A stretch of 64,000 bases of DNA from Pseudomonas antarctica. GTDB taxonomy: Bacteria > Pseudomonadota > Gammaproteobacteria > Pseudomonadales > Pseudomonadaceae. Positions 1 through 51,829 of this stretch are shown here, piece after piece. The notes under the pieces are model-generated. The model was not told the DNA's origin. It made no database searches and worked only from the letters and a program-made list of their open reading frames with translations. The stretch covers positions 1 through 64,000 of the forward strand of contig NZ_UYXQ01000020.1 in NCBI RefSeq assembly GCF_900624995.1, written 5' to 3'. Each line of letters starts with the position of its first letter. Within the stretch, counting starts at the first letter, position 1. Both the position numbers and the translations under genes were made by a program.

Positions 1-284
1 AAGAAGCGACCCAGATGATCCTGCAAGGGACGCAGCTGGAGATTGAATATGCTCGCGATACCATGCCGCGCGGCGTGTTGGGCATGAATGCGGCGATGAT
101 GGAGGATTACCTCAAGTTCATCGCGAACCGTCGCCTGTCGCAGATTGGGTTGAAGGAAGAGTATCCGGGGACGACGAATCCGTTCCCTTGGATGAGCGAG
201 ATTATGGACTTGAAGAAAGAGAAGAATTTCTTTGAGACTCGGGTGATCGAGTATCAGACGGGTGGTGCGTTGAGCTGGGATTGA
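1..284 (+). CDS. nrdB: Ribonucleotide reductase class Ia beta subunit, C-terminal part
   Basis: The last 93 codons of the small (R2) subunit of aerobic ribonucleotide reductase, which carries the diiron-tyrosyl radical used to reduce ribonucleotides to deoxyribonucleotides. The 5' end lies outside the window; the frame is open from base 3. The fragment has the family's final helices (RGVLGMNAAMMEDYLKFIAN, then PFPWMSEI) and the acidic C-terminal tail that docks on the R1 subunit (ends in GALSWD). A strong terminator follows at 343-380. The identification rests on recognising the sequence; the catalytic residues are upstream of the window. Confidence 0.93.
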   Translation, partial: EATQMILQGTQLEIEYARDTMPRGVLGMNAAMMEDYLKFIANRRLSQIGLKEEYPGTTNPFPWMSEIMDLKKEKNFFETRVIEYQTGGALSWD

Positions 285-342
285 TGATACGGTAAATTTG
301 TTGTAGATCGCGCTTTACCTGGGCATGGATGTTGGGGTAGCG

Positions 343-380
343 AAAATAGAGACCCCGCCATTGCGGGGTTTTTCTATTTT
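343..380. terminator. Rho-independent terminator after nrdB, readable both ways
   Basis: Arms AAAATAGA plus ACCCCGC and GCGGGGT plus TCTATTTT close over a CATT loop, with a T-rich tract on one side and an A-rich tract on the other. It ends 13 bases before the GTG of the SIR2 gene, so it lies in the leader of that operon unless a promoter sits inside it. Confidence 0.9.
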
Positions 381-393
381 ATAAGGACATCCA

Positions 394-1623
394 GTGAGCG
401 AGTCAGTACACAACCCTGATCAATATATGTTCGGCTTCCGTCAGGCAATTACTAACGGAAAGAAAAAAATTGGATTGCTTTTAGGGGCCGGAGCTCCATT
501 TAGCATAAACATTGGCGGGGACGGTCCTTGGCAACCGCTGATCCCGAACGTAGTAGGCCTAACCAAAACGATCAAAGAAAATCTTGAAAGAGACGACTTA
601 ACAGTCTTCAACCTAATAGAAGAGTCAATACCGGATAAGAACTTTGAAAAAGTCCTTTCAAAAATAAGAACTCTCGCAGACGTCATTGGTAGCTCTACAG
701 TCCACGATTACGATAGTAAAAAATTCTCACAACTAACCGAAAATATCTGCAACGCCATTAAACAGGTGGTGAACAAGGACTTACCACCTGGAAAAAACCC
801 ATACTCCGAATTAATATCTTGGATAAATGGAATAAAAAGAAGATACGGCGTTGAAATATTTACCACCAACTACGACTTGTTATTAGAGCAGGCACTTGAG
901 AGAGTTAAGACGCCCTACTTTGATGGCTTTAGCGGGTCAAGAAACGCCTTTTTCGACCCATCAAGCATTTCACGAAATGACCTTCCTCCACGCTGGGTTA
1001 GATTATGGAAGCTGCATGGATCCATAGGCTGGGAAATTAGTGAAAATCAGGAGGTGATCAGACTACCATTTTCAACTAATACAAATATGGTCTACCCATC
1101 CCATATAAAATACGACCAAACCCAAGCTGCTCCATTCTCTTCACTATTTGAAAGATTTAAAAATTTCCTGAATGAAAGCGACACACTCACCATAGCATCC
1201 GGTTTCTCCTTTGCTGATGCGCATATATCTTCAAAAATAACTGAAAGTCTTATAGCCAACCCATCAACTGCACTATTTGCGTTTCAATATAACAACTTAG
1301 AAAAAGAACCGCACGCGCGTGAAATCGCATTCAACTGCCCCAACTTCAGTTTATTCTGTAGAGACGGCGCAGTAATAAACGGAGTAGAGGCACCTTGGAG
1401 GACAGGAATATTACCCGCAAAAAACTGGCAATCCATAAGAGATGAGTATTTTAAGAATAAAGAATTTCAGCTCGGCGATTTTAATGCGCTAACCCGCTTT
1501 CTAGCAACAGCAGGCGGTGATTTTGGATTTGAGATAGAAAACCCAATCCCCGCCCTAGTAGAGGAACAACAACCCGACCTCGATTTCCAACTGCCTGTCG
1601 TAGATGAGCCAAAAAATGATTAA
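394..1623 (+). CDS. SIR2-domain protein of a SIR2-HerA type defence operon
   Basis: 409-residue SIR2-like (SIR2_2 type) protein. SIR2 domains of defence systems cleave NAD+ to starve infected cells. Visible motifs: the nucleotide-binding GAGAP loop at 31-35, TTNYD at 157-161 (the Asn-Asp pair of the NAD pocket) and LHGS at 207-210, with His208 as the expected catalytic His; a second Rossmann edge reads IASGFSFADAH near 266. The start is GTG at 394 with AAGGA at 382-386. Codon use (ATA, AGA, TTA) is much more AT-rich than in nrdB or the HAD gene, which suggests transfer. The 3' end overlaps the HerA gene, as expected for translational coupling in a two-protein complex. The defence role is inferred from the pairing with HerA. 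Confidence 0.88.
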   Translation: MSESVHNPDQYMFGFRQAITNGKKKIGLLLGAGAPFSINIGGDGPWQPLIPNVVGLTKTIKENLERDDLTVFNLIEESIPDKNFEKVLSKIRTLADVIGSSTVHDYDSKKFSQLTENICNAIKQVVNKDLPPGKNPYSELISWINGIKRRYGVEIFTTNYDLLLEQALERVKTPYFDGFSGSRNAFFDPSSISRNDLPPRWVRLWKLHGSIGWEISENQEVIRLPFSTNTNMVYPSHIKYDQTQAAPFSSLFERFKNFLNESDTLTIASGFSFADAHISSKITESLIANPSTALFAFQYNNLEKEPHAREIAFNCPNFSLFCRDGAVINGVEAPWRTGILPAKNWQSIRDEYFKNKEFQLGDFNALTRFLATAGGDFGFEIENPIPALVEEQQPDLDFQLPVVDEPKND

Positions 1624-3394
1624 TAACCCGACATATATGGGCAGCATAAGCTCAGTTTCCAGCTCATCTATAATAGTAGAACTCGCGGAATCAATGGAAT
1701 CAGGAATTATAATAATTGAGGGTAAAAACTACAGAATCGGCCAAGTCGGAAGCTTCGTAAAGATACCTATTGGTTACAACCAGCTTTTTGGTGTCACCTC
1801 AGAGTCAAATGAATCATCTGGCAACGAAAATGAAAATATAATATCCAAAGGTCGACGATGGATAAAAGTTGAATTAATAGGCGAAATGATAGGTGGGGAA
1901 TTTGATCGAGGAATTAGCGAATATCCAAGCATTGGAGATGATGTACATGTTGTAGTAGATAGTGACCTAAAGAAGATTTTTGGATTATCCTCAACGGGTC
2001 AATTTACCATCGGCAAGCTCTCAAGCTCAGATGGCATTGACGTGAGCTTAGACTTAGACAAATTGGTTTCTCGCCACTCGGCGATCCTTGGATCTACAGG
2101 CTCAGGTAAGTCAACCAGCACAGCCTCCATCATCAGATCGCTCGTTACAAAAAACGAAGCAATACGGTTGCCGTCCTCCAGGATTTTGTTAATAGACATT
2201 CATGGAGAATACGAATCAGCCCTCGGAGATATAGCAAAGGTATTCTCTGTTCTTCCCGACAGCAAAAACCCTCTTTATATCCCATACTGGTGCGTGTCAC
2301 CAGAGAGCCTACTGGAATTCCTATGCGGAAACTTAACAGAAAGCCAGAAAACTCAATACTTAGATAAAACAATTGATGAAAAAAAGCTTTCCATAAAAAC
2401 AAATAAAATAAAACACACATTAGAAGAATCAGTCAACACACTCTCCCCCTTACCTTATCGAATTAAAAAGATCTGGCACGAACTATATTACGATGACACC
2501 GTAAACTGGCAGGAGAAAGAACATATAAGACCCGCATGGGCTGAAAACGGAGAAGGAGATGCGGAAAAACTACTTCCTCCACGTTTTCTACCGCCGGCAA
2601 CAGGAGGAGCCGCTCCCTACAAAGGAGGTCCGGGATCAATGAAAAGACAGTTGGAGCTAATGAAATCCAGACTGCTAGATTCGCAGTATTCGTTTCTATT
2701 GAACCCTGGCCCCTGGTGCCCCGATAAAAATGGAGTTATTGCTAAAGATTTAGACCAATTACTTACGGACTGGTTAGGACACGACAAGCCCATTACAATT
2801 TTAGATCTCTCGGGAATGCCTTCCACTCGCCTAAGCTTACTACTTGGCTCTATCCTAGATATACTTTTTGAATCATCGATATGGGGGAAAAACCTTAATA
2901 CAGGCATGAGAAAACGCCCTCTACTGGTAGTACTCGAGGAAGCCCATAGATACTTATCAAACAAAGAAGATGGGCTAGCAAAACAAATGGTCCAGCGTAT
3001 CGCAAAAGAAGGCAGAAAATTTGGTGTCGGGGCGATGATAGTGAGTCAGCGACCTTCAGAAATCGATGAAACTATTTTATCTCAATGCGGAACAATTATT
3101 GCCTTGCGAATTAACAACTCTACTGATCGTAGCATAGTAAAGTCTGCAATGTCAGAAGGTCTAGCTGGCATCATTGACTCCCTCCCTATACTACGAACGG
3201 GTGAAGCTATTATAGTGGGCGAAGCCGCAAAACTTCCAACAAGATGTCGTATTAACATACTTCCTTCAAATAAGTATCCAAACAGCAAAGACCCAGAAGT
3301 CTCTAGCAATTGGGCGAAGGATAGAGCCATAGAGGATTATGAACCACTAGTATCGGCCTGGCGAAACCAGGTAATTAGAAAGGAAGAAAAATAA
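1604..3394 (+). CDS. HerA-type hexameric ATPase/translocase, partner of SIR2
   Basis: 596-residue FtsK/HerA-superfamily ATPase. An N-terminal HAS-barrel-like beta domain (about 1-130) is followed by a RecA-like core: Walker A GSTGSGKS at 163-170, a long insertion at about 230-370, Walker B LVVLEEAH at 441-448, and the SQRP sensor segment at 481-484. HerA proteins form hexameric rings; in SIR2-HerA defence the ring assembles with SIR2 into a large NADase/nuclease complex. ATG at 1604 overlaps the SIR2 gene by 20 bases; a second in-frame ATG at 1616, which overlaps the SIR2 stop, is equally plausible. AT-rich like its neighbours. The family call is firm; the activity is inferred. Confidence 0.9.
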   Translation: MSQKMINNPTYMGSISSVSSSSIIVELAESMESGIIIIEGKNYRIGQVGSFVKIPIGYNQLFGVTSESNESSGNENENIISKGRRWIKVELIGEMIGGEFDRGISEYPSIGDDVHVVVDSDLKKIFGLSSTGQFTIGKLSSSDGIDVSLDLDKLVSRHSAILGSTGSGKSTSTASIIRSLVTKNEAIRLPSSRILLIDIHGEYESALGDIAKVFSVLPDSKNPLYIPYWCVSPESLLEFLCGNLTESQKTQYLDKTIDEKKLSIKTNKIKHTLEESVNTLSPLPYRIKKIWHELYYDDTVNWQEKEHIRPAWAENGEGDAEKLLPPRFLPPATGGAAPYKGGPGSMKRQLELMKSRLLDSQYSFLLNPGPWCPDKNGVIAKDLDQLLTDWLGHDKPITILDLSGMPSTRLSLLLGSILDILFESSIWGKNLNTGMRKRPLLVVLEEAHRYLSNKEDGLAKQMVQRIAKEGRKFGVGAMIVSQRPSEIDETILSQCGTIIALRINNSTDRSIVKSAMSEGLAGIIDSLPILRTGEAIIVGEAAKLPTRCRINILPSNKYPNSKDPEVSSNWAKDRAIEDYEPLVSAWRNQVIRKEEK

Positions 3395-3604
3395 ATGGAA
3401 AGAACTCCAGTAAGCTCCAGCAATATCGCGAGTGTCGGGTACGACACTGCTACCTCCTCACTTCAAATTGAGTTTCTTAGTGGAAAAGTCTACGAGTATT
3501 ATGACGTCCCGGAAAGCGAATTCGATGGATTGGTAAATGCCGGATCCCCCGGGGGCTACTTCCACGCGAACATAAAGAACGTTTACAGCTACAACGAAAT
3601 CTGA
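3395..3604 (+). CDS. KTSC-domain protein, third gene of the SIR2-HerA operon
   Basis: 69-residue single-domain protein that matches the KTSC pattern (domain also seen at the C-terminus of some lysyl-tRNA synthetases): VGYD near 14, FLSGKVYEYYDVP in the middle, and a GGYFHANIKNVY end. Its ATG directly abuts the HerA stop (TAAATG), so it is the third cistron of the operon and probably translationally coupled. Its role is unknown. Position and shared AT-rich codon use suggest it belongs to the system, perhaps as a regulator or a substrate-sensing or antitoxin-like part, but nothing in the sequence proves this. Confidence 0.85.
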   Translation: MERTPVSSSNIASVGYDTATSSLQIEFLSGKVYEYYDVPESEFDGLVNAGSPGGYFHANIKNVYSYNEI

Positions 3605-3654
3605 AACGTTACAAAAAACTCAGCGACAAATTCAATTTAGCTCCGCTCTCTGTC

Positions 3655-3683
3655 TTGACCGAAACCCTGGAAGCCAATAGGCT
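3655..3683 (+). promoter_or_regulatory. Candidate sigma-70 promoter of the C4/Bro-N cassette
   Basis: TTGACC (3655-3660), a 17-base spacer, and TAGGCT (3678-3683). It sits 51 bases after the KTSC stop and just before the first pair of C4 target sites, as expected if antisense RNA and target share one transcript. The -10 box is only a fair match. Confidence 0.5.
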
Positions 3684-3697
3684 TCTAACCCGGTGCC

Positions 3698-3716
3698 TAA
3701 GAAACACCTCACACAG
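3698..3716 (+). promoter_or_regulatory. Upstream C4 target site pair (b1/a1)
   Basis: TAAGAAA at 3698-3704 and CACACAG at 3710-3716 are the same two words, in the same order, found at 3876-3897 before the leader ORF. Both are complementary to the single-stranded antisense words at 3841-3857 of the C4 candidate. Phage P1/P7 immI regions are known to carry such a duplicated a1/b1 and a2/b2 arrangement. Confidence 0.55.
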
Positions 3717-3790
3717 CGGACTGACCGCACCCGACAGTAGCGGCTTTTTTGTGCCTACGGTTTTCCCGTGGGCATCGAAAATCTCTGTTA

Positions 3791-3867
3791 TGCCGGGAGT
3801 GGGCTAATACAAGACCCGAAAGGGGAATATGTCCGGCCCTCTGTGTGGGGTTTCTTAACTCCCGGCA
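3791..3867 (+). ncRNA. c4: Candidate C4 antisense RNA (P1/P7 immI type)
   Basis: A closing stem of 10 perfect base pairs (3791-3800 with 3858-3867) encloses a small hairpin CCC-GAAA-GGG at 3815-3824 and the antisense region. CCTCTGTGTG at 3838-3847 is the exact complement of CACACAGAGG at 3891-3900, which overlaps the Shine-Dalgarno region of the leader ORF; TTTCTTA at 3851-3857 is the complement of TAAGAAA at 3876-3882. In phages P1 and P7, C4 RNA is processed from the ant operon transcript and blocks translation of a small ORF on which ant expression depends. The downstream gene here is a Bro-N (Ant-like) protein, which fits. Confidence 0.75.
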
Positions 3868-3875
3868 CCCAGCCC

Positions 3876-3900
3876 TAAGAAAGCTGACATCACACAGAGG
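3876..3900 (+). promoter_or_regulatory. C4 target sites at the leader ribosome-binding site (b2/a2)
   Basis: TAAGAAA (3876-3882) and CACACAGAGG (3891-3900) pair with the C4 candidate. AGAGG is also the Shine-Dalgarno element for the ATG at 3903 or, with better spacing, the ATG at 3909, so pairing would hide the ribosome-binding site. Confidence 0.65.
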
Positions 3901-3902
3901 TA

Positions 3903-4001
3903 ATGGAAATGCCTAGAATTTTCACCTTCCTTGCGAAGGCTATCTACTGCATAAGAACGGTCCTTCAAGCACCTCTGATAAAGGCGGTGCGCCATGCATG
4001 A
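3903..4001 (+). CDS. 32-codon leader peptide translationally coupled to the Bro-N gene
   Basis: An open frame of 32 codons begins at ATG 3903 (alternative ATG 3909) right after AGAGG at 3896-3900, and its TGA (3999-4001) overlaps the Bro-N start (ATG 3994-3996). The peptide begins MEMPRIFTFLAKAIYC and is basic and hydrophobic. Its position matches the small ORF before ant in P1/P7 immI, whose translation is the direct target of C4 RNA. That the ORF is translated is inferred from its layout. Confidence 0.6.
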   Translation: MEMPRIFTFLAKAIYCIRTVLQAPLIKAVRHA

Positions 4002-4524
4002 TCCCTTCTCCCCTACTGTCTTCACCCGCCAAAACCTCCCATTGCACGCCCTCCTTCTGGAGAACCAACCGTGGTTCTGCGCTCGCGATCTTGGGCGCTT
4101 AATGGGGTGGTTCCTAGATGAGCGCACGACTCGCAAGCTCGATGAAGACCAACGAAGAACTGTAAAACTGCTGTTCCACGGTCAGCCCGAAGAAATGCTG
4201 ATGATTAGCGAATCCGGTGCTTACGCGTTGTTGGTCTATCACTACACACCAGGAAATCGCCTGCTACGTAGCTGGTTGACTCATGAAGTAGTTCCGACGT
4301 TGCGGGACGAACGCCAGCCAAGGACGTTGGAACGCCCATTGTTGAGCATGCTGGACTGGCCGGAGATGTCGTTGAACCTGCTGCATTGGCAAGACGAAGG
4401 CTGGATAAGGCTTCGGGATATGCCGTATTTACTGGTTAATCGGACCTACCAGAGGAAGTCAGCAAAGATTTCGTGGTGGCGAAAGCTCACCCAATTTTTC
4501 CGAATGAAGCCGCGAATGTACTGA
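3994..4524 (+). CDS. Bro-N domain protein, Ant-like antirepressor candidate
   Basis: 176-residue protein with an N-terminal Bro-N DNA-binding fold over about residues 10-110 (WFCARDLGRLMGW, then EEMLMISESGAYALLVYHYT and SWLTHEVVPTLR, the hallmark of this family). Bro-N domains are found in phage antirepressors such as P1 Ant. The C-terminal 65 residues carry no domain I recognise and end in a basic tail. Start ATG 3994 overlaps the leader stop, so expression probably depends on leader translation. No repressor, integrase or other phage gene is nearby, so this is a solitary cassette. Confidence 0.8.
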   Translation: MHDPFSPTVFTRQNLPLHALLLENQPWFCARDLGRLMGWFLDERTTRKLDEDQRRTVKLLFHGQPEEMLMISESGAYALLVYHYTPGNRLLRSWLTHEVVPTLRDERQPRTLERPLLSMLDWPEMSLNLLHWQDEGWIRLRDMPYLLVNRTYQRKSAKISWWRKLTQFFRMKPRMY

Positions 4525-4623: not shown

Positions 4624-5337
4624 ATGGATACGAAAAAAAGTAATACCGGATGGAGCGATCAGGAGCTTGAAGCGTCCGTCGATAGCTATCTGAAAATGTG
4701 GACCCTTGAACGAACTGGTCAAGCCTTTAAAAAATCAGCTGAGAACCGGTTACTGCGAGAGGGGCCACTCAACCTGCGCAGCGCTTCGTCAATTGAATAT
4801 CGCATGCAGAACATCTCTTCGGTATTTGAACAGCTCGGTTTGCAACGTGTCACTGGCTATATGCCTGCGAAAAACATCGGTGCCGGAGTTAGTGAACGTA
4901 TTCGCAAAATGCTAGCAACAAAACCAGGCCTGCACTCTGAGCCTGGTCTGGCGGCCGAAGATAAACCACTGCCCGACGAGCGCCCTACCCTTTCTAAGCC
5001 TTTCCTTGTAATCGAGCCACAAGGCGTTCTGAATCCGCGGCAGTTGTTCACTGTCAGTCTTTCTTACGCACGCGCAGAGCATGTACGAAAGCTGGTACTA
5101 CAGTTTGCGAATGGGGTCTGCGAAGGTTGCGATTTGCCAGCGCCTTTCGCCGGAATTGATGGCCAGCCATTTCTTGAAGTACATCACGTCAAGCACCTCG
5201 CCCAGAAGGGTTCGGATCGCACGACCAATGCTGTAGCCTTGTGCCCCAATTGCCATCAGCGTTGTCACCGGTCGAGTGACCGGGATGCTTTCACCGAGAC
5301 GCTTTACGCCAAGATCGGAAGATTGGCACGGGAGTAA
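4624..5337 (+). CDS. HNH endonuclease, restriction-type
   Basis: 237 residues. The N-terminal half (10-95) matches the domain that precedes HNH nucleases in many restriction-like proteins (SIEYRMQNIS at 56-65 and GYMPAKNIG at 78-86). The C-terminal half is an HNH nuclease with a zinc knuckle: Cys166-x2-Cys169, EVHH at 185-188, Asn202, Cys207-x2-Cys210 and His211. The linker at 100-140 is variable. It is expected to cut DNA, perhaps modified or foreign DNA. No methyltransferase is adjacent, so it is a stand-alone nuclease at the right edge of the island. No good Shine-Dalgarno sequence precedes the start. Confidence 0.85.
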   Translation: MDTKKSNTGWSDQELEASVDSYLKMWTLERTGQAFKKSAENRLLREGPLNLRSASSIEYRMQNISSVFEQLGLQRVTGYMPAKNIGAGVSERIRKMLATKPGLHSEPGLAAEDKPLPDERPTLSKPFLVIEPQGVLNPRQLFTVSLSYARAEHVRKLVLQFANGVCEGCDLPAPFAGIDGQPFLEVHHVKHLAQKGSDRTTNAVALCPNCHQRCHRSSDRDAFTETLYAKIGRLARE

Positions 5338-32821: not shown

Positions 32822-32909
32822 CTTCTACCACTCAGGTCGGCTACTAGGCCGCCGTGCTCTTGCTTTTGATCTTGATCTGAGGCGCCCCGTTAAACCACGC
32901 TGGCCGAAC

Positions 32910-33004
32910 GCAGGCTTGAATCCGTGGGTAACCCGGCAGGACGCCGGGTTAGCCGCGCTGGGCCAAGGATGGCCCATCGCGGCGGCCCACGGATTCAAGC
33001 CTGC
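32910..33004. repeat. Long foldback element
   Basis: A 19-base perfect outer stem (32910-32928 with 32986-33004) encloses two inner hairpins (ACCCGGC with GCCGGGT, and GGGCCA with TGGCCC). I recall this as a dispersed Pseudomonas element, not checked here. Sequence from about 33005 to 33110 (GAGCCTAGGCGAGGTGCCGA onward) seems to belong to the same unit. Confidence 0.75.
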
Positions 33005-33206
33005 GTGCGGGCACACCGAGCCTAGGCGAGGTGCCGAGTGGTGGGGCAAAGACCTTTTGCTTACTTTTGGGTCTTTCCAAAAGTGAGCCGCTGTAAGAGC
33101 GGAACCCTACTAAGCCGTTACCGCAGCAACGGATATGTACTCATATCTACCTAAAAACCCCGTCAAAAGCTTAGCCCAACACAAAAATTTGCGTAGATAC
33201 CCATGG

Positions 33207-51156: not shown

Positions 51157-51505
51157 GAGTGGTGTAGGACGCCTGTAGGACGCGACTGACATTGCGGTAA
51201 GCGCCTTGCCCGGTTGCCTACGCTTACGTCAGAATCCGCCGGCTTGTGCGCTTGGGTATGGAGTTCTAAGGTTTGCCGGTCACTGAATTTCTCGGTGATC
51301 GGGTTTAGTAGCCCGGACTGTCCCGTATAAAGTGCGTGAGCTTCATCTATCGGACTTAACTGTCCGTGCTTGATGGTGGCTGTACGTAGGGCGCCCTTGT
51401 GGCGCGCCGGGCTTTGTACGGGCTAACCGGTCTACTAACCTGCGTACAGCTGCCACCCTCTCGTTTAGTAGCGATCAGGTGACGGCCCAGCAAGAGTCCG
51501 TACTT
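51157..51505 (+). promoter_or_regulatory. Structured leader of the DUF6124 gene
   Basis: About 350 bases without a gene. GGTGGCTGTACG (51375-51386) pairs with CGTACAGCTGCCACC (51443-51457): 12 base pairs with a three-base bulge, holding an inner hairpin around GGCGCC..GGCGCGCC. Upstream are TCACTGA/TCGGTGA and TAGTAGCCCGG/CCGGACTG foldbacks. I remember similar leaders before DUF6124 genes in related strains; unverified here. Confidence 0.55.
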
Positions 51506-51829
51506 ATGTTCAAAATAACGCCGAATCCTCCGCTTAACGATACAAAACTCAACAAAGCCGCCCACCGTGCGATTGATCATTACCTCAACCCCACAACCGA
51601 TCCCGCACCCGAACCCTCTGCACTGTTCACCGTCAGCCCCGACGCCAGTCCTGAAAGCCTGATTGCCAACAGCTACGAAACCGTGTGTTCCGTCAGCGCC
51701 TTGTTGCTCGACCTGTCCGATGACCTAACCGGCAAAGAGCGCGACGTGGCCCTCGCCATTCATCAACTGAGCGAGCTATCAGTCTTGATGGTAGGCAAGG
51801 CCATGGACCAGCAAACACCGCGAACCTAA
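51506..51829 (+). CDS. DUF6124 family protein
   Basis: 107 residues from ATG 51506. Start MFKITPNPP, then KLNKAAHRAIDHYLNP, and a helical end (ESLIANSYETVCSVSALLLD, LAIHQLSELSVLMVGKAMDQ). Family of unknown function in fluorescent pseudomonads. A long structured leader precedes it. Confidence 0.85.
   Translation: MFKITPNPPLNDTKLNKAAHRAIDHYLNPTTDPAPEPSALFTVSPDASPESLIANSYETVCSVSALLLDLSDDLTGKERDVALAIHQLSELSVLMVGKAMDQQTPRT

Follow-up and report, generated by a model that had tools for sequence, protein, structure and literature searches.

What kind of RNA lies ahead of a Bro-N gene in Pseudomonas antarctica, and does it act on that gene by the antisense logic of P1/P7 C4? The window, meaning the whole stretch of DNA that was analysed, comprised 64,000 nt of the forward strand of contig NZ_UYXQ01000020.1 (assembly GCF_900624995.1), and the locus occupies 3655-4524 on the + strand. 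The following elements were delineated.

3655-3683, + strand: probable promoter, read by eye (-35 TTGACC at 3655-3660, 17-nt spacer, -10-like TAGGCT at 3678-3683)
3692-3708, + strand: upstream target hairpin GGTG-CCTAAGAAA-CACC, with word a1 (TAAGAAAC, 3698-3705) largely within the loop
3710-3716, + strand: upstream target word b1, CACACAG
3716-3750, + strand: terminator-like element (GCGG at 3716-3719, CCGC at 3725-3728, a second GCGG and a T run)
3792-3874, + strand: sRNA-Xcc1 RNA (RF02221), 83 nt, closing stem 3792-3800/3858-3866
3838-3848, + strand: word b', CCTCTGTGTGG, in the last hairpin of the sRNA-Xcc1 RNA
3850-3857, + strand: word a', GTTTCTTA, at the junction of the sRNA-Xcc1 RNA
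3870-3886, + strand: downstream target hairpin CAGC-CCTAAGAAA-GCTG, with word a2 (TAAGAAA, 3876-3882)
3891-3900, + strand: downstream target word b2, CACACAGAGG, containing the ribosome-binding site of the leader ORF
3909-4001, + strand: leader ORF (ATG at 3909, 30 codons and stop; TGA at 3999-4001 overlaps the Bro-N start)
3994-4524, + strand: antirepressor-like Bro-N protein, 176 aa (PF02498; PHROG anti-repressor families)
4624-5337, + strand: HNH protein adjoining Bro-N (PADLOC candidate PDC-S36 and type IV restriction models)

The leader start at ATG 3909 was preferred because the alternative ATG at 3903 does not stay in frame in two related loci (L003 and L054). Overlap of the leader stop with the Bro-N ATG (3994), as originally claimed, was found in the window and in 13 of 16 other Xcc1-type loci; in the remaining three, the leader either reads through into the Bro-N frame (L036) or was read from the wrong ATG (L003 and L054). 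The claimed position of the leader ribosome site within the second target also held, being contained in b2. For the promoter the outcome was divided: TTGAC starts 39-42 nt 5' of CCTAAGAAA in 16 of 17 Xcc1-type Pseudomonas leaders, in surrounding sequence that differs among them, and generic scans of 3600-4100 reported neither promoter nor terminator. Within the HNH protein at 4624-5337, the match to PDC-S36 lies in the N-terminal part and those to type IV restriction models in the C-terminal part.

Identification of the RNA

Covariance search assigned 3792-3874 to sRNA-Xcc1 (RF02221) with 75.8 bits against a cut-off of 53, over model positions 1-87. The original prediction had described a C4-like RNA closed by 10 base pairs and had named an empty search with the C4 model as refuting. 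No match to the C4 model (RF01695) was found in 3600-4050 at E <= 10, nor to the isrK model in that interval at that threshold, and membership of the C4 family was ruled out in favour of RF02221. The closure itself stood, as the nine pairs of the RF02221 model plus an extra T-A pair (3791/3867) make ten. The antisense mechanism survives the empty C4 search because RF02221 follows the same logic, with a' and b' complementary to copies on both sides of the RNA and the second copy at a ribosome site. Judged by its sequence, sRNA-Xcc1 works like P1/P7 C4, though it is not a C4 family member.

RF02221 was detected in 58 of 398 Pseudomonadota genomes at E <= 0.001, 40 of them above the cut-off. Plasmid matches were in Providencia, Pseudomonas, Arsenophonus and Nitratidesulfovibrio, and the Xanthomonas originals were not among them. 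No published link of sRNA-Xcc1 to C4 or to an antirepressor was found in the literature searched, in which few subscription papers were covered. One cited paper, by its title, reportedly places sRNA-Xcc1 under HrpG/HrpX control. The Xanthomonas RNA measures 88 nt by end mapping and about 100 nt on northern blot and was given computed targets in the accessible text of PMC2996969; it thus differs from the window copy, which precedes a leader ORF and Bro-N, in having been published as a small RNA with computed targets. The available part of PMC12444791 places sRNA-Xcc1 ahead of symE in integron cassettes of Xanthomonas (13 species), no mechanism being settled in that text. For P1/P7 C4, the available text of PMC5320573 attributes occlusion of the ribosome site to b' and specificity to a', and it also describes C4-like RNAs in Acinetobacter; a c4-a1b1 motif is listed in the part of PMC2864571 that was available. 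C4 of P1/P7 (RF01695) and sRNA-Xcc1 share bipartite a'/b' words and a target on either side, of which the downstream one is close to where the next gene begins.

Complementary words within the locus

The word pair TAAGAAA...CACACAG was present at 3698-3716 and again at 3876-3897, which confirmed both of the duplicated target pairs originally proposed. When exact matches with a spacer of 2-16 were sought elsewhere in the 6.2 Mb assembly, the pair was found only inside the RNA, on the opposite strand (3841-3857); as exact words, the target pair is unique to the window locus within the genome. On the downstream side, RNA 3838-3848 is complementary to 3890-3900 over 11 nt and RNA 3851-3857 to 3876-3882 over 7 nt, so that the complements claimed for the second site were recovered with G-T pairs allowed. 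Upstream, again allowing G-T, RNA 3841-3851 is complementary to 3706-3716 over 11 nt and RNA 3850-3857 to 3698-3705 over 8 nt. Computed duplex energies of the word segments were -25.5 kcal/mol at the downstream site and -27.0 kcal/mol at the upstream site; when binding by the folded RNA was modelled, the net gain was a modest -5.0 kcal/mol downstream, against -14.3 kcal/mol upstream.

Co-variation of the RNA with its flanks

RF02221 loci in genomes were taken from 103 listed matches, and 90 of these entered the analysis, comprising 29 supplied directly as loci, 60 whose sequence was fetched, and the window; 13 weak ones were omitted. By flank length, 89 of the 90 could be read for words such as those quoted below for L125 and L106, 87 entered the own-versus-cross test and 84 entered the controls. 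For each locus, the longest Watson-Crick run of the RNA 3'-half part was determined within its own flanks and within the flanks of every other locus, the downstream flank reaching up to 60 nt past the RNA and the upstream flank running from 150 to 40 nt before it. Since the best run was taken in every pair, own or cross, own pairs gain nothing from the choice of site.

At the 87 genome loci, the mean own run was 6.54 downstream, against 5.24 +- 0.10 under permutation (z 12.7), and 8.32 upstream, against 5.88 +- 0.12 (z 20.4). Runs of at least 7 were present upstream in 78/87 loci (22.7% of cross pairs) and downstream, within 60 nt, in only 44/87 (10.7% of cross pairs). With 55 non-redundant genome loci, z was 9.6 downstream and 17.2 upstream, and the observed value was reached in 0 of 10,000 permutations in each of these four tests. 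At the median, a genome locus's own flank beat 80% of flanks downstream and 91% upstream. The controls on 84 loci gave z 0.2 for far downstream and 2.1 for far upstream flanks, 0.7 and 0.8 for the RNA 5' part, and 0.0 and 1.6 for same-sense matching.

The same test was applied to a viral set, obtained by a pattern scan of viral contigs that yielded at least 80 loci, 79 places being used and 33 being non-redundant. Among the matches listed, the 33 non-redundant places gave downstream means of 7.06 against 5.21 (z 10.6), with runs of at least 7 in 27/33, against 9.6% of cross pairs, and shorter runs in 6/33. Upstream, likewise among the matches listed, the means were 7.52 and 5.61 (z 9.8), and runs of at least 7 were found in 25/33 (16.3% of cross pairs). 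As a positive control, 30 listed C4 loci and the window's own C4 at 51369 were treated in the same way: 30/31 had runs of at least 7 downstream (12.0% of cross pairs) and 30/31 upstream (18.8%), and the C4 RNA 5' part gave z 0.8 and -0.8. sRNA-Xcc1 therefore carries the statistical signature of C4 (RF01695) in this test, downstream less cleanly than C4 does.

The words vary by locus and yet match their own targets, so that RNA and target co-vary. Among the 17 Xcc1-type Pseudomonas loci, 11 carry one allele, which combines CTCTGTGTG in the RNA with CACACAG as both target words, and six carry a second, CTCTGGT in the RNA with ACCAGAG targets; at one locus of the second allele (L005) the upstream copy is GCCAGAG, one base changed, with a G-T pair still possible. 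Further afield, GTCTGATTGC matches GCAATCAGAC-c-ATG at the start of the next gene at L125, and CTGATAAG matches CTTATCAG-gagaccacc-ATG at that of L106. With two target copies, a leader ribosome site, an antirepressor-type gene and co-variation across loci, the P1/P7 immI logic originally read from the window was borne out; as in that unit, a leader ORF is followed by an antirepressor-like gene, Bro-N having this putative role from its matches to anti-repressor PHROGs.

These data also bear on whether the local complementarity is incidental, the RNA acting mainly on distant host genes. Many host genes are indeed named in the published predictions for sRNA-Xcc1 and its Xylella relatives, the latter with 212 predicted targets (accessible text of PMC2996969 and PMC12189769). 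The cross-pair, far-flank, 5'-part and same-sense controls all argue against such a reading, and we regard it as very improbable; additional host targets with imperfect words may nevertheless exist, the genome word search having covered exact words only.

Genes following the RNA

The downstream target of RF02221 RNAs is usually found where the following gene begins. Candidate next ORFs numbered 82 (none in seven loci), and 55 of these were scanned together with the Bro-N of the window, giving 56; the other 27 were dropped by eye for doubtful frames or as near copies, so the family shares that follow are not unbiased. Pfam matches were Bro-N (6), SymE (6), Phage_pRha (4), P22_AR_N (1) and KilA-N (1), with single matches to HSDR_N, HSDR_N_2, Rap1a, HTH_38, ORF6C and DUF4901. 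Most of the 56 had no Pfam match, antirepressor or SymE families accounting for at most 18/56, and each PHROG anti-repressor family was matched by up to 7/56. Among the viral matches listed, a next ORF was identified and scanned for 30 of the 33 non-redundant places, and these gave P22_AR_C 10, KilA-N 8, Bro-N 5, P22_AR_N 3, pRha 3, AntA 2 and ORF6N 2, some proteins being counted repeatedly. The recognised next genes of RF02221 RNAs are thus, by domain prediction, mostly phage antirepressors or SymE.

In named phages the RNA is directly followed by ant (Haemophilus phage Aaphi23), anti-repressor Ant (Pasteurella phage Pmp3) or a KilA-N protein (Acinetobacter phage 4316), and at all three loci words of 6-10 bases match on both sides of the RNA. 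Of the six SymE loci, five have a b'-matching word (6-9 bases, G-T allowed) at the ribosome site and L111 has a 7-base match overlapping the start codon; no clear upstream copy was seen at L126 and L153. SymR is encoded on the strand opposite SymE. It differs as a cis-encoded antisense RNA from Xcc1, which precedes its gene on the same strand. SymR controls its SymE gene by antisense pairing (as cited in the available part of PMC12444791), which is what would be expected of Xcc1 at the SymE loci.

Predicted mode of action

We consider it likely that the sRNA-Xcc1 segment is a bipartite antisense RNA that silences the leader ORF and with it Bro-N. This reading builds on what was observed: the RNA is complementary to its targets and co-varies with them from locus to locus, many targets sit where the following gene begins, and those following genes that could be recognised are mostly antirepressors or SymE. 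From these we infer that the segment is processed, acts in trans and represses, and which way the upstream arm works. The transcript would begin near 3690, and the segment 3792-3874 would fold into a multi-helix RNA that places b' in its last hairpin and a' at the junction. These words would pair with a2, in the loop of a small hairpin, and with b2, at the leader ribosome site, and so block leader translation; as the leader stop and Bro-N start overlap, this block would also keep Bro-N off. The segment would presumably be freed as a small RNA acting in trans, in the manner of C4, which RNase P processes into an RNA of about 77 nt. Weighing against this reading are the loci with short downstream runs, the minority of next ORFs that match an antirepressor or SymE family, the empty generic promoter and terminator scans, and the modest modelled gain at the downstream site.

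Alternatively, the segment may never be free, and the leader may act as a cis-only, attenuator-like riboregulator, toggling between pairing with the upstream copy (on) and the downstream copy (off). All parts do lie in one stretch and in one orientation, and the other leader type found before Pseudomonas Bro-N genes (below) resembles such a cis switch. The predicted fold of the leader (3684-3900) also agrees in pairing the antisense segment with the upstream copy; it leaves b2 free, so that a cis block of b2 is not the predicted default. The founding Xanthomonas sRNA-Xcc1 is, however, a discrete RNA (accessible text of PMC2996969), and C4 is a processed antisense RNA (accessible text of PMC5320573). 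On balance we judge a cis-only switch unlikely and prefer the antisense RNA acting in trans.

Upstream target and terminator-like element

A hairpin followed by a T run was present between the upstream target and the RNA in 133 of 167 family loci (redundant ones included), the corresponding rate being 8% in shuffles and 17% on the opposite strand, and these elements comprised 38 distinct stems. At the window, the stem is of 4 bp (CCGC/GCGG) with an 11-nt loop and is not reported by the generic scan; within 3716-3750, CCGC is able to pair with either GCGG copy. Such a hairpin, common in the Xcc1 type and counted there only, may set Xcc1 apart from C4. The upstream a-word lay within a hairpin loop in 71/76 family loci and the downstream a-word in 25/50, against 160/870 random places; in the C4 set the corresponding counts were 23/31 and 16/30, against 71/310 random places.

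By analogy, the a1-b1 copies ahead of the terminator-like element are most likely a feedback arm. The closest worked example is IsrK/orf45/anrP of Gifsy-1, in which, according to the accessible text of PMC4825925, the short RNA ends at a terminator, the read-through message is untranslated, the short RNA activates in trans, and the leader ORF orf45 is coupled to the antirepressor-like anrP. The window shares the coupling of a leader ORF to an antirepressor-like gene, and gave no isrK match in 3600-4050 at E <= 10. One option would be IsrK-like, a short a1-b1 RNA binding the antisense RNA and thereby releasing Bro-N. In the other, the antisense RNA would affect termination at the upstream arm, as described for the P4 CI RNA, a processed leader RNA with complementary sites on both sides (seqA/seqC) that resembles sRNA-Xcc1 by description and differs in acting on transcription termination (PMC4825925, accessible part).

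The Bro-N locus in Pseudomonas

The module had been described as isolated, beside a defence operon and with no phage around it. The last point was upheld: the seven neighbours scanned carry ribonucleotide reductase small chain, SIR2_2, HerA, KTSC, Bro-N, HNH and HAD domains, with no phage structural or integration genes among them. The ribonucleotide reductase small chain gene is one that we take to be nrdB. Isolation was not upheld, as Bro-N relatives occur in 154 of 249 Pseudomonas genomes at E <= 0.001 (several copies in some), with nrdB and HNH as the usual neighbours. Of the best 80 of 132 Bro-N loci, all titled Pseudomonas and presumably from strains of the fluorescens group, 69 had a match to nrdB on the upstream side of the stretch fetched, and 70 had a match to HNH close by (on the same strand in 59, on the opposite strand only in 11). 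The SIR2-HerA-KTSC trio was found in only two of these 80. In the window, 394-3604 encodes the SIR2-HerA defence pair together with a small gene that has a KTSC domain, and the trio lies at the equivalent place in L036 and L054.

An Xcc1-type leader was present in 16 of the best 80 Bro-N loci and in the window (17 in total). The 64 of these 81 loci that had no Xcc1 core carried a second conserved leader type before Bro-N: 60/64 share the a1 word, and 49/64 have, by pattern match, both halves of a stem that would mask the ribosome site. In L008 (5790-6000) and similar loci, the segment CTCTACGTTGGG can pair with the upstream copy or with the ribosome site, and no convincing Rfam match was obtained for this leader type in L008, the sole locus scanned. 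The distance between nrdB and Bro-N match starts exceeded 1.5 kb in 10/10 Xcc1-type loci against 11/59 others (Fisher p 1e-6), distances being read by eye at loci with nrdB in reach and related loci not being independent. Inserted genes between nrdB and Bro-N go with the Xcc1-type leader and are often of defence type (window 15-4524, L002-L081). In a scan of 43 of 58 listed ORFs of at least 110 aa from 27 loci (none from L043), together with the SIR2 and HerA of the window, and with the 25 commonest families listed, the genes between nrdB and Bro-N gave model matches to PtuA, type II methylase, EcoRII-C and SIR2-HerA, and one to an IS66 transposase.

A quick tree was built from 80 of 81 Bro-N proteins (one of < 140 aa was excluded), on which the leader type switches 10 times, at least four of them on well supported branches; a single Xcc1 clade was rejected (p-AU 4e-124). 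Compared with the window, L078 has a Bro-N only 60% identical and a leader 93% identical, and L007 has a Bro-N 89% identical and yet the other leader type. From the switches and this contrast, leader and gene have been exchanged independently of each other. Genome G130 has Bro-N paralogues behind RNAs of both families, one behind a true C4 and another behind an Xcc1 RNA.

It had also been suggested that the unit guards the island or responds to incoming phage, as a captured immunity module that would sense or block phages sharing its words. The same logic does stand before antirepressors in viral contigs and phages, and defence genes are in the neighbourhood; against this, no phage-like site with these words was found in the sampled viral collection, blastn gave no match of the module to the phage records, and Bro-N is a common chromosomal gene. 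A phage origin or phage target was sought by words in that collection and rejected: there was one viral match to the words of the window and three to those of the sister allele, which look like chance, and the contigs concerned had no RNA core and no Rfam RNA of the sRNA-Xcc1/C4 kind at the gathering threshold. Against plasmids the module gave one blastn match, over 27% of the query and beside a gene annotated as a BRO family protein. A captured immunity module is accordingly a most doubtful description of this locus, and we retain antisense control of the resident Bro-N gene.

What was found across the family is of greater interest than the window copy. Tentatively, sRNA-Xcc1 could form a second class of immunity-type antisense RNA that is widespread and bipartite and has a decoy arm bearing a terminator. 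In Pseudomonas it could have been domesticated as an exchangeable leader cassette that silences a chromosomal operon of Bro-N and HNH genes (possibly a defence nuclease), located next to nrdB at a hotspot of defence genes. If so, an RNA switch employed by phages in lysogeny would gate the expression of defence, which suggests that lysogeny-type RNA switches control resident bacterial genes. For an RNA family so far discussed as a possible virulence small RNA, antisense control of the downstream gene would be a testable job, and the target of a member should be predictable from its own locus and not from genome-wide target scans.

Other RNAs in the window

A TwoAYGGAY RNA motif (RF01731, 54 bits) was found at 32897-33017. 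The window also contains a true C4 RNA (RF01695, 66.9 bits) at 51369-51460, with complementary words in its flanks (region 51302-51829), a short distance ahead of ORF 51506-51829, a DUF6124 gene. Across the assembly as a whole there are 21 C4 matches, 20 of them above the cut-off.
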